Below are positions 4,962-53,925 of a DNA stretch of 64,000 nt, one piece after another. The stretch spans positions 248,001 to 312,000 of the forward strand of contig NZ_KQ758617.1 in NCBI RefSeq assembly GCF_001457035.1, read 5' to 3'. Within the stretch, counting starts at the first letter, position 1; every line of letters begins with the position of its first letter. A model generated the notes under the pieces. That model made no database searches. It was not told the DNA's origin and saw nothing but the letters and a program-made list of their open reading frames with translations. Origin of the DNA: Fictibacillus enclensis. GTDB lineage: Bacteria > Bacillota > Bacilli > Bacillales > Fictibacillaceae. The position numbers were made by a program, and so were the translations under genes.

Positions 4962-4990
4962 TTGACAAATTGAAATCCCTGGTATATGAT
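4962..4990 (+). promoter_or_regulatory. Sigma-A promoter of the tandem SAM riboswitch operon
   Basis: TTGACA (4962-4967), 17 bases and TATGAT (4985-4990) give a near-consensus promoter about 30 bases before the first aptamer. Confidence 0.8.
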
Positions 4991-5019
4991 AGAGCACATC
5001 AAGTAAATATGACGTATTT

Positions 5020-5137
5020 CTTATCCAGAGAGGTGGAGGGACATGGCCCTTTGAAACCTCGGCAGCGGGTTTTTCGTTTTTTGAAAAAATACTGTGCCAA
5101 TTCCACCAGGTTCCCTAAAGAACCTGGAAGATAAGAA
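5020..5137 (+). ncRNA. SAM-I (S-box) riboswitch, first copy
   Basis: The S-box core is complete: CTTATCCAGAGAGGTGGAGGGA, CCCTTTGAAACCTCGGCAGC, TGTGCCAATTCC and the closing GATAAG that pairs with CTTATC. It binds S-adenosylmethionine and ends transcription when SAM is plentiful. It is followed by its own hairpin (5164-5195) and then by a second full copy. Confidence 0.95.
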
Positions 5138-5195: not shown

Positions 5196-5219
5196 TTGCA
5201 AAAAAAACTGAATGGTTTT

Positions 5220-5329
5220 CTTATCCAGAGAGGTGGAGGGACTGGCCCTTTGAAGCCTCGGCAGCGGGTTTCCGGCAAACGGAAATACTGTGCCAATTCC
5301 GTCAAGCAGTTAGCTTGGGAGATAAGAAG
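5220..5329 (+). ncRNA. SAM-I (S-box) riboswitch, second copy
   Basis: A second complete aptamer follows with the same conserved core (CTTATCCAGAGAGGTGG, CCTCGGCAGC, TGCCAATTCCG and closing GATAAG). The core helices match the first copy, while the variable P3/P4 regions differ. This suggests a duplication kept under selection rather than a recent copy. It is followed by its own terminator at 5355-5388, 31 bases before metN. Confidence 0.95.
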
Positions 5330-49898: not shown

Positions 49899-51257
49899 TT
49901 ATTTCCCGGTGTGAACAATCTTGAAGACCTTTTTCGCCTGGTCTGTGTTGTTGATTAATCCCGCAAACTTTTCTTTGCCTGGTCCGTATGCATATACGTT
50001 CACATCCTCGCCGGTATGGCCGGTCGTTGTCCATCCGGTATTGGAACGAAGGTCGGCAATTTTCTCGATGGTGGCGTCGATTTTTGTTACATCTTTTGAT
50101 TTAGCCGCTTCCTTTACACTGTTGATTTCTTCCGGTGTCAGGCTGAGGTCGACATACTTTCCGAGTGTTGCTTCAACATCTGCTCCGGAAGCAATGGTTT
50201 CTGAGAGAAAATCGGGAGTACGCTTGAACGCTTTGATCGGCTCAGTGAACCAGTTATATTTTCCGTTGGCCCCGACCGATATTCCGCCTGTCGCATGGTC
50301 TGCTGTAGCCACGACAAGAGTATGCTTGTCTTTTTTTGCGAACTGAACCGCAGCCTGGAACGCCTTTTCAAAGTCCTGCATCTCGCTCATGGTGCTGACG
50401 ATATCATTGTCGTGTTCTCCCCAGTCAATCTGGCTTCCTTCCACCATGAGGAAGAAACCATCTTTGTCTTTATCAAGCTGTTTAATGGCGGAGGTCGTCA
50501 TGTTCTTGAGTGAGGGCAAGTCATGATTACGGTCAATCATTTTCGGCATTCCGCCTTTTGCAAACAGTCCCAGTACTTGCTCGTTTTTGTTGCGGAGCAA
50601 TTGATCCTTTGTGGTCACATAGCTGTATCCTGCATTCTTAAATTCATTCACCAGGTTTCTGTCATTGCGAATAAAATTGGATGAGCCACCTCCGAGAAGG
50701 ACATCGACCTTATGCTTATGGCTGATTTTTTCATCGAAATAATCGTTGGCAATCTCATTCATGTTCTTACGGTTGGGATCGTGTGCGCCGAAAGAAGCAG
50801 GGGTGGCGTGAGCGAGCTCAGAAGTGGCAACAAGCCCGGTAGATTTTCCTCGGGCTTTGGCAGCCTCAAGCACTGTTTTTAATTCCTTTTGATTTTTGTC
50901 CACGGCAATGGCGGCATTGTATGTTTTTTCTCCGGTGGACATTGCTGTGGCGGCGGAAGCAGAGTCAGTGATATTCTCATCGGGATCATCAGCATAGGTC
51001 ATTTGTTTTCCAACGAAATAACGGTCAAAAGCGGTTTTTTCCATTTCCATTGTATCTGGATCATCTTTCCAATACCGTAATGCTGTGGTGGCCGAAGGGC
51101 CCATCCCGTCCCCGATCATGAAAATAACATTCTTTATTTTAGGTTCTTTCTTGGTGAGGTTCTTTGCATCGCCATGCATCGACATGGAAACGGCTCCGAG
51201 CCCGACGGCGGTACTAAGGGCAATAGGAAGCCATTTTTTAAAGCGGTCCTTTTTCAA
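49899..51257 (-). CDS. Alkaline phosphatase (PhoA/PhoB family), secreted
   Basis: From TTG 51257 (AGGAGGGAACGACA before it) the protein is 452 residues with a signal peptide KKDRFKKWLPIALSTAVGLG. Active-site elements are IFMIGDGMGPSA, the nucleophile Ser in ITDSASAATAMSTG, ATSELAHATPASFGAH, MVEGSQIDWGEHDND, VATADHATGG and GHTGEDVNVYAYGP near the end. It releases phosphate from organic phosphates outside the cell. The 90 bases before it have no convincing pair of Pho boxes. The upstream in-frame residues to 51296 are not used. Confidence 0.92.
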   Translation of the reverse strand: MKKDRFKKWLPIALSTAVGLGAVSMSMHGDAKNLTKKEPKIKNVIFMIGDGMGPSATTALRYWKDDPDTMEMEKTAFDRYFVGKQMTYADDPDENITDSASAATAMSTGEKTYNAAIAVDKNQKELKTVLEAAKARGKSTGLVATSELAHATPASFGAHDPNRKNMNEIANDYFDEKISHKHKVDVLLGGGSSNFIRNDRNLVNEFKNAGYSYVTTKDQLLRNKNEQVLGLFAKGGMPKMIDRNHDLPSLKNMTTSAIKQLDKDKDGFFLMVEGSQIDWGEHDNDIVSTMSEMQDFEKAFQAAVQFAKKDKHTLVVATADHATGGISVGANGKYNWFTEPIKAFKRTPDFLSETIASGADVEATLGKYVDLSLTPEEINSVKEAAKSKDVTKIDATIEKIADLRSNTGWTTTGHTGEDVNVYAYGPGKEKFAGLINNTDQAKKVFKIVHTGK

Positions 51258-51389
51258 TGTCGTTCCCTCCTGTAAAATTTTATATTTATCTGTCAATTTA
51301 AGTATATGCCATCCTTAAGAGTTCCCTCAATGGACCATAGGTATTGCATAGAATGTACTAGAGAGACAAATGGAGTGAAAAGAGGACAT

Positions 51390-51513
51390 AAAAAAAGAGC
51401 CGAACAGGCTTCGGCTCTGGGGTTTATATGTAAATAAAAGGTTGCTTTGTTTATGATAGCTGTGCTAAAATAAAGGTTGTGGCTTACGAGTTTAAATAAT
51501 ATTATAACTATCC
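51390..51513 (-). ncRNA. Candidate small RNA of about 124 nt
   Basis: On the minus strand a consensus promoter (TTGACA 51549-51544, 18 bases, TATAAT 51525-51520) points to a start near 51513. The transcript ends in AGAGCCGAA-loop-TTCGGCTCT followed by seven U. No open frame with a ribosome binding site lies between. The middle is unstructured and A/C-rich (ACAAAGCAACC, then AACCCC before the terminator), as in sRNAs that pair with ribosome binding sites. It fills most of the 330-base gap between the phosphatase and helD. Confidence 0.6.
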
Positions 51514-51519
51514 AAATTT

Positions 51520-51549
51520 ATTATACTATGTAAGCTGATCTGTTGTCAA
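51520..51549 (-). promoter_or_regulatory. Sigma-A promoter of the candidate small RNA
   Basis: TTGACA and TATAAT are both perfect hexamers on the minus strand, with an 18-base spacer. Confidence 0.7.
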
Positions 51550-51588
51550 GTGATATACGAAAAAATTTTTAGATAAAGGAGAGGGGCC

Positions 51589-53925
51589 ATGAACCAGTGG
51601 GAAAAAGAATGGCAGACAGAGCAAGAGCGTGTGAATTCCGTTGTTGAGAAGGCTGCTCATAAGATCCGGAGGCTGGAGGCACATCTCGGCGGTAAAAAAG
51701 TAGACGTGGTTGACATCCGGAAAAACTTCTGGGAAGACGTGACCGTCAATTTAGAAGATGCCGATGAAGCGATCGAGACTGCGGCGAGCATTAAACAGCA
51801 GGCGGAATTGCTTTCAGAACTTGAACGCAGCCACAAAAATGCAGAAGATCAAATGAAAAGCCTGGTGCGCTTGAGTGATTCTCCCTACTTTGGAAGAATC
51901 GACTTTAAAGAGAAGAGTGATTCCGATTCTCAGCCGATTTACCTGGGCATTGCCTCTTTTTATGATGAAGAAAAGGATCAATTTTTGGTATATGACTGGC
52001 GGGCGCCCATTTCAAGCCTGTATTATGACTATTCTCTGGGCAAGGCGGAATACGAAGCTCCTGGCGGTGTTATTTCAGGTGAGATGGAGCTTAAGCGCCA
52101 ATATATCATTCGAAACGCTATCATCAAAAGCATGTTTGATACGGGTGTAACCATTGGTGATGAATTGCTTCAGGAAGTATTGAGCCGTCAGGCGAACCCG
52201 CAGATGAAAAGTATTGTGGCGACCATTCAGAAAGAGCAGAACCAGATTATTCGAAACACGAAGGGGTCCCTGTTGATCGTCCAGGGTGCTGCGGGATGCG
52301 GAAAAACCTCCGCCGCCCTTCAGCGTGTGGCCTACCTGCTATACCGTTACAGAGAAACGCTGACAGCCAACCAAATCGTTCTTTTTTCTCCAAACAACGT
52401 ATTTAACAGTTATGTATCCAATGTCCTTCCTGAGCTCGGTGAGGAAAATATGATGCAAACGACGTTTCAGCAGTATATTCACCATCATTTGGGAAGCTCC
52501 TTTCACCTTGAGGATCCGCTCGAACAAATGGAAGCGGTGCTGACAGCTGGAGAGGGTCCACAGGATCAGACAAGGCTGGCCAGTATCCAATACAAAGCGT
52601 CTCTGGACTTTATGGATATGATTGAAAAGCTCATTTCTCGTCTTCGTAAAGAGGGAATAATCTTCAAACCGATCAAATTCAGGGGGAAAGTACTCATCCC
52701 GGCTGAGGAGATTAAAGAAAAGTTTTATTCCTACGCTCCATCGGTCTCGATTCCGAACCGGATGAAACTTGTATCCGAATGGCTAGTCCGTGAGTTGCGC
52801 AAATTCGAAAAAGCCGAAAGAAATGAACCGTGGGTAGAGGAAAAAATACAGCTGCTCGAAAAGGATGTATACGTAAAGCTGTATCAAAAACTGCAAAAGA
52901 AAAAGCAGTACTCAGAAAATACATTCAACGATTTTGAAAGAGAGCAAAAGCTGTTATCGGCTTATGTCGTATCAAGAGCATTTAAGCCGCTGAAGAAAAG
53001 GATTAAAGCTTTAACTTTCATTAATTTAAAAGCACTCTATATGGCGTTGTTCAAAGAGGATGGATTGGTTTCACCTGCAGAAGTCCCGTCCAGATGGAAA
53101 CAAATATGCCTGCTTACTGCAAAAACTCTTGCCCAGGGAGAATTGTATTATGAAGATGCTACTCCATTTTTATATTTAAAAGAACGGATGGAAGGCTTTC
53201 AGACTAATACTGCTGTAAGACATGTATTCATTGATGAAGCCCAGGATTATTCACCGTTTCAGTTTGCCTTCATACAACGGCTGTTTCCGCGGAGCAAAAT
53301 GACAGTACTGGGGGATTTAAACCAATCCATCTATGCGCATTCCACAGGAGCCGCTTTTCAAATGCTGTACGACCGTTTTGGCAGGGAGAATACAGAGCAG
53401 ATTATTCTGACCAGAAGCTACCGGTCAACAAGGCAGATTGTAGAGTTTACAAGAGAACTGCTGGATGAACCGGATAAGGTGGTTCCATTCAACAGGGATG
53501 GAGAAAAGCCGGTACTGAAGCAATTTTCCGCTTCTAAAGACCATTCCCGCTCAGTTGCAGATACGATTGCGCATCTTCAAAACGAGAAGGTTAAAACGAT
53601 TGCCGTCATTTGCAAAACCGAACAGGAGTGCAAAGAGGCCTATGAAGCATTGAAGGAACAGGTAGAGGTAGAATTGATGCTGAAAGAATCGTCCGCGTTT
53701 AAGCAAGGAACGCTGATCATCCCGTCCTATCTCGCCAAAGGGATTGAGTTTGATGCTGTTCTTGTTTATGACGCGTCAAACGAAGTGTATGGAAAAGAAA
53801 GCGAACGAAAATTGTTTTATACCGTTTGCACCCGTGCTATGCATGAATTACATCTTTTCGCCAAAGGAGACCTATCGCCGTTTTTTGAACGAATTCCTGA
53901 GGATACCTTTCATGCTGAAAACTAA
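51589..53925 (+). CDS. helD: RNA polymerase recycling helicase HelD
   Basis: The 778-residue UvrD/PcrA-like protein has the HelD-specific N-terminal coiled coil (1-100) and FGRIDF-YLGIASF-YDWRAPISSLYYDY segment. Walker A is in VQGAAGCGKTSAALQR. A long inserted helical domain (340-560) precedes motif II FIDEAQDYSPFQ, GDLNQSIYAHS and the C-terminal IPSYLAKGIEFDAVLVYD and FYTVCTRAMHELHLF. HelD binds stalled RNA polymerase and releases nucleic acid and sigma. AAAGGAGAGG precedes the ATG. Confidence 0.93.
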   Translation: MNQWEKEWQTEQERVNSVVEKAAHKIRRLEAHLGGKKVDVVDIRKNFWEDVTVNLEDADEAIETAASIKQQAELLSELERSHKNAEDQMKSLVRLSDSPYFGRIDFKEKSDSDSQPIYLGIASFYDEEKDQFLVYDWRAPISSLYYDYSLGKAEYEAPGGVISGEMELKRQYIIRNAIIKSMFDTGVTIGDELLQEVLSRQANPQMKSIVATIQKEQNQIIRNTKGSLLIVQGAAGCGKTSAALQRVAYLLYRYRETLTANQIVLFSPNNVFNSYVSNVLPELGEENMMQTTFQQYIHHHLGSSFHLEDPLEQMEAVLTAGEGPQDQTRLASIQYKASLDFMDMIEKLISRLRKEGIIFKPIKFRGKVLIPAEEIKEKFYSYAPSVSIPNRMKLVSEWLVRELRKFEKAERNEPWVEEKIQLLEKDVYVKLYQKLQKKKQYSENTFNDFEREQKLLSAYVVSRAFKPLKKRIKALTFINLKALYMALFKEDGLVSPAEVPSRWKQICLLTAKTLAQGELYYEDATPFLYLKERMEGFQTNTAVRHVFIDEAQDYSPFQFAFIQRLFPRSKMTVLGDLNQSIYAHSTGAAFQMLYDRFGRENTEQIILTRSYRSTRQIVEFTRELLDEPDKVVPFNRDGEKPVLKQFSASKDHSRSVADTIAHLQNEKVKTIAVICKTEQECKEAYEALKEQVEVELMLKESSAFKQGTLIIPSYLAKGIEFDAVLVYDASNEVYGKESERKLFYTVCTRAMHELHLFAKGDLSPFFERIPEDTFHAEN

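Follow-up and report, generated by a model that had tools for sequence, protein, structure and literature searches.

The element lies between two genes of the 64,000-base stretch of Fictibacillus enclensis DNA analysed here (the window). On one side is the alkaline phosphatase gene phoA (49899-51296, minus strand; PF00245), whose start is given as the mechanical start of its ORF, a later TTG near 51257 being also possible. On the other side is helD (51589-53925, plus strand), preceded by a Shine-Dalgarno sequence AAAGGAG read from the sequence at 51575-51581 (plus strand). helD codes for a class I (B. subtilis-type) RNA polymerase recycling/protection factor: its product scores 1233.4 bits against NF041464, the HelD_BACSU model (cut-off 419), a profile match that was scored for the window protein only, the genes of the relatives being called helD by similarity. 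The acidic tip residues E56, D57 and E60 align without a gap to D56, D57 and E60 of the B. subtilis protein (PDB 6wvk_H). The original prediction placed a candidate small RNA in this intergenic region, and it named both neighbours correctly.

The predicted transcription unit is oriented away from helD. Its promoter, P_anti-helD, consists of a -35 box TTGACA (51544-51549) and a -10 box TATAAT (51520-51525) on the minus strand, separated by an 18-nt spacer. When both strands of the window were scanned with spacers of 16-18, no other promoter reached 12/12; the claim of perfect hexamers holds. The same scan found two 11/12 promoters, at 4962 (plus strand) and 37680 (minus strand); the former precedes tandem SAM riboswitches at 5018-5137 and 5218-5328 (plus strand), located about 80 bases apart. 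Transcription from P_anti-helD is expected to start with GGAUA at 51513 and to yield an antisense RNA of about 125 nt (51389-51513, minus strand; both ends inferred), terminated by an intrinsic terminator at 51390-51418. The latter had been described as a 9-bp hairpin with seven U. The hairpin (51418-51396) and the seven T's (51396-51390) are there, but one of the T's belongs to the ninth base pair, and the tail is therefore six long. The antisense RNA folds with -20.5 kcal/mol (z = -2.8; 1 of 200 shuffles equally good), the terminator hairpin being its strongest structural element, with little structure elsewhere. phoA is located downstream of this terminator and is not part of the device.

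The original prediction overlooked how the unit is oriented relative to helD, and also that the RNA region contains another promoter on the plus strand. The most conserved block within the antisense RNA, read on the plus strand, is TGTGCTAAAAT. It contains an extended -10 element with TTGNTT 18 nt upstream and is directed towards helD. In the window this promoter, P_helD, has a -35 box TTGCTT (51442-51447) and an extended -10 TGTGC-TAAAAT (51461-51471), again with an 18-nt spacer. Its expected start, at about 51478 (plus strand), falls inside the antisense-RNA region. Judged by sequence, the helD leader carries two convergent sigma-A promoters, the antisense -35 box being nearest to helD. The antisense promoter matches the consensus hexamers at 12/12 positions, the sense promoter at 3/6 and 5/6 with an extended -10. 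The two -10 boxes face each other across 48 bp (51472-51519), a gap which would put the predicted starts (about 51478 on the plus strand and 51513 on the minus strand) about 36 bp apart; the 5' ends of the two RNAs would then overlap and be complementary.

An inverted repeat can be seen by eye in the helD leader at 51482-51536 (plus strand), with CTTAC close to the start and its partner GTAAG within the antisense spacer. It could form a hairpin in the helD mRNA. The repeat is also present in L015-L019 (as ACTTACC/GGTAAGT in L017-L019, weaker in L016), and was not seen by eye in B. subtilis.

Conservation and spread of the promoter pair

DNA similarity to the site was found in six of seven genomes of the genus, own genome included. 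A paralogue search of the own genome returned only the locus itself below E 0.1, and a distant-mode search of a plasmid collection with the element gave no match. Six genus orthologues (L014-L019; L016-L019 are the same genes as L003-L006) were compared column by column. All columns are invariant in the antisense -35 (6/6) and -10 (6/6) boxes and in the extended -10 of P_helD (11/11), and 5/6 are invariant in its -35 box. The antisense start region has 9/11 invariant columns. The counts fall to 5/19 between the two RNA starts, 7/23 from the helD -35 to the terminator and 7/23 in the terminator arm. As invariant columns are frequent at both promoters and rare elsewhere, conservation follows the two facing promoters and not the body of the RNA. 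Outside the promoter cores, the alignment across genera was too divergent to be of use.

All six genus orthologues have GG at the predicted antisense start; neither L020 nor L021 does. An energy-based search allowing bulges placed a terminator at 124-150 nt in 6/6 genus orthologues (with a weak U-run in L017) and found none for the antisense unit in L020 and L021. A simpler terminator scan gave none in L003, L004, L005 and L020. Inspection by eye does show an A/U-rich hairpin and U-run in L020. Conservation of the promoter together with the terminator, suggested earlier as a check, was seen throughout the six genus orthologues when terminators were sought by energy. The two promoters, their facing geometry, the terminator and their conservation are what the sequences show directly.

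To quantify the arrangement we used a pair score, which sums hexamer matches and a bonus for an extended -10 in promoters with -10 boxes 40-60 bp apart. The score was devised after this locus had been seen, so controls matter. The window region scores 22. When 62 greedily called window genes were scored, a value of at least 20 came up only for the region common to phoA and helD, the next best being 19. A pair with a score of at least 20 precedes 8/8 helD genes in seven Fictibacillus genomes (G006 has two). In the family, 28 of 32 regions reach this threshold, with p of 0.005-0.025 against 200 dinucleotide shuffles each (floor 0.005), and the same 28 do so with 100 shuffles. The other four (L037, L058-L060) are at chance by pair score (p 0.17-0.39). 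An order-wide sample comprised 199 genomes, of which 128 matched. The best 30 loci taken from it provided 27 readable non-own regions, of which 16 reach 20 (all p at most 0.02), seven score below 20 and four have no pair; for L064 a misplaced gene start is the probable reason. In the genus Bacillus 29 of 44 genomes matched and 12 helD loci were taken; all 11 readable regions score at least 21 (p at most 0.01). On this evidence the geometry is kept in front of all tested Fictibacillus helD genes and most of those tested in the family, as well as in B. subtilis.

Two genomes have a second close helD homologue: L021 of G006, which has a convergent pair of its own, and G033:C1:1043324-1045621, which has an internal stop codon. 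The sense promoter of L020 lacks an extended -10.

Comparison with the convergent helD promoters of B. subtilis

In B. subtilis helD is known to have two convergent promoters, PhelD and Panti-helD (Sudzinova et al., Nucleic Acids Res. January 2026; PMC12802891). Panti-helD is the stronger of the two and represses helD by interference; sub-inhibitory rifampicin stalls it and helD is switched on. This "rifampicin alarm" lets trace rifampicin induce the RNA-polymerase-protecting HelD, in which mutation of D56, D57 and E60 abolished protection from rifampicin. Inactivation of the antisense -10 made helD expression high and uninducible. Control was lost when the promoters were swapped, when the distance between them was shortened by 17 bp or when the sense promoter was replaced by Pveg. 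lacZ fusions reproduced the control, and it was also seen, though weaker, in vitro. The starts are 39 bp apart, and the antisense promoter initiates with GTP. The antisense RNA, ashelD, is about 90 nt long in vivo, as seen on Northern blots, and ends at about 94 and 138 nt in vitro. A similar convergent, rifampicin-responsive pair with the same logic, Ppps/Panti-pps, controls a rifampicin-modifying enzyme (PMC12802891). The name Fictibacillus is absent from the main text of that paper. Among the literature matches listed, convergent-promoter control of helD was recognised only in PMC12802891 and in PMC13099321, which cites it.

Identity of 100% over 204 residues singled out L097 as the B. subtilis locus, and the published TGTAAAATA can be read by eye on its antisense strand. 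Here the script applied to the window finds TTGATT-18-TATTAT opposite TTGACA-18-TAAAAT, the gap being 51. If each RNA starts seven bases from its -10, this gap corresponds to the published 39 bp. The predicted antisense ends are at 91 and 144 nt, to be compared with the published values of about 94 and 138 nt.

The Fictibacillus locus shares with PhelD/Panti-helD a class I helD, the order and orientation of the promoters and the facing geometry (gap 48 here, 51 there). Both sense promoters combine an extended -10 with a weak -35, both antisense promoters have TTGACA, and in both a start at GGATA is predicted, as is, for our locus, a short terminated antisense RNA. The GG predicted at the antisense start of the six genus orthologues fits the initiation with GTP in B. 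subtilis. The start spacing, about 36 bp as deduced from the gap, agrees with the two-polymerase distance requirement known from B. subtilis. There are also differences. The antisense -10 is a perfect TATAAT here and its spacer is 18 nt, whereas in B. subtilis a 19-bp antisense spacer was stressed as possibly important, with an 18-bp alternative noted (PMC12802891). One terminator is predicted here (at about 125 nt) versus two ends there (about 94 and 138 nt), and the neighbouring gene is an alkaline phosphatase gene instead of yvgT.

pps provides a further difference. Two PF01326 (pps-like) proteins are encoded in the own genome. The gene for the 866-aa one (L093; C1:525669-526565, minus strand) is possibly the counterpart of pps / rifampicin phosphotransferase. 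Unlike B. subtilis pps, this tested gene has no good pair upstream: the best score is 17, and the published string has no match there.

Proposed control of helD and alternative readings

Taking the likeness and the differences together, we regard the element as very likely the antisense half of a convergent two-promoter helD switch, the Fictibacillus counterpart of the PhelD/Panti-helD rifampicin alarm. The antisense unit would run from the consensus promoter in the helD leader over the weaker P_helD and end at the terminator beyond it. Without rifampicin, antisense RNA polymerases would displace the polymerase residing on the slow-escaping helD promoter and keep helD expression low. At sub-inhibitory rifampicin the busier antisense promoter would be more likely to hold a drug-blocked polymerase and interference would stop. 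helD would then be induced and HelD would protect RNA polymerase. The relative strength of the promoters, the slow escape from the sense promoter and the induction by rifampicin are assigned to this locus by analogy with B. subtilis. Judged against the consensus, the rifampicin region of rpoB in this genome reads as wild type, with no obvious resistance change.

Several points speak against the alarm reading: the 18-nt antisense spacer, the perfect hexamers, the family and order members without a pair, the tested pps-like gene without a good pair, and L020 and L021 with neither a GG start nor a predicted terminator. In particular, a perfect antisense consensus could slow promoter escape, while the alarm model needs fast escape there.

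A short terminated antisense RNA is very probably made from the helD leader, because its B. subtilis counterpart ashelD is visible on Northern blots. To this extent a small RNA was predicted correctly. Under the proposed switch it would be mainly a by-product of polymerase traffic. Alternatively, it might act in cis by pairing with the leader of the helD mRNA, as the predicted starts (about 51478 on the plus strand and 51513 on the minus strand) would give about 36 nt of full 5' complementarity. We find this improbable, given that the stretch between the starts is poorly conserved (5/19 columns) and that control of B. subtilis helD was reproduced in lacZ fusions, was lost on promoter swap or replacement by Pveg and was seen, though weaker, in vitro (PMC12802891).

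RsaE/RoxS and FsrA are C-rich trans-acting small RNAs of Firmicutes. The predicted RNA resembles this type in being short, in having its own promoter and terminator and in a few C-rich stretches, and it was originally proposed to pair with ribosome binding sites through CAACC and ACCCC. The A/C-rich unpaired middle does contain CAACC and CCCC in the window, the near relative L015 has both motifs and L016 has CAACC. However, among the six genus orthologues CAACC occurs in only three (L014-L016) and CCCC in two (L014, L015); both are absent from L017-L019, L021 and B. subtilis, while L020, which is more distant, lacks CAACC and has its CCCC at a different place in the transcript. The RNA body is poorly conserved outside the opposite-strand promoter. 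The Rfam search, one of the checks suggested earlier, assigned no family to the site at gathering score when run over the whole window, and in a permissive scan of 51000-52000 the best sub-threshold match had E 0.67 and lay on the other strand. RsaE/RoxS or FsrA-like blocking of ribosome binding sites of other mRNAs is thus very unlikely to be the function of this RNA, and the trans-acting part of the claim finds no support.

Least credible is an attenuator in a long 5' leader of the co-directional phoA. In its favour, the phoA ORF begins on the same strand 100 bases beyond the hairpin, and the gene adjoins the element in every one of the six genus orthologues. When 74 loci were searched with the window phosphatase, however, a match within 1.5 kb of helD came up in these six only (a seventh match, L072, is the window itself, a duplicate); 22 further family loci have the pair in front of helD but no phoA in that range. 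Rfam gives no riboswitch there either, and this candidate was rejected. Since the pair is kept without phoA in 22 family loci, the promoter belongs to the control of helD and not of phoA. A second output can nevertheless be imagined in Fictibacillus: the perfect-consensus antisense promoter is directed at the alkaline phosphatase gene, and read-through of the antisense terminator would couple RNA polymerase stress (or the GTP level) to phosphatase expression. We give this little credence; if true, the phosphatase would go down when helD goes up.

The arrangement may be missed by pattern search. The published degenerate string TTGN3-N(17,18)-W6-N(45,55)-W6-N(18,19)-N3CAA matches the window at 51442 (plus strand). 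It is loose: each strand of the window has three matches, of which one is the helD site. Yet among the 62 upstream regions of the window it matches only those of phoA and helD. In the family only 10 of 32 regions match it, mostly because the sense -35 is TGTACT or similar in many relatives. Of the 28 family regions that have the pair, 19 (L038-L056) do not fit the string, in 17 cases (L039-L055) for lack of a TTG at the start of the sense -35, and a search with it would count too few of these convergent systems.

With the helD alarm as the very likely reading, an apparent orphan small RNA of Fictibacillus becomes an explained regulatory device, and annotators should not label a perfect promoter plus terminator in a helD leader as a trans-acting sRNA. 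By sequence, the alarm geometry is conserved in Fictibacillus and in most of the family members tested, often despite a sense -35 that no longer fits the published search string.
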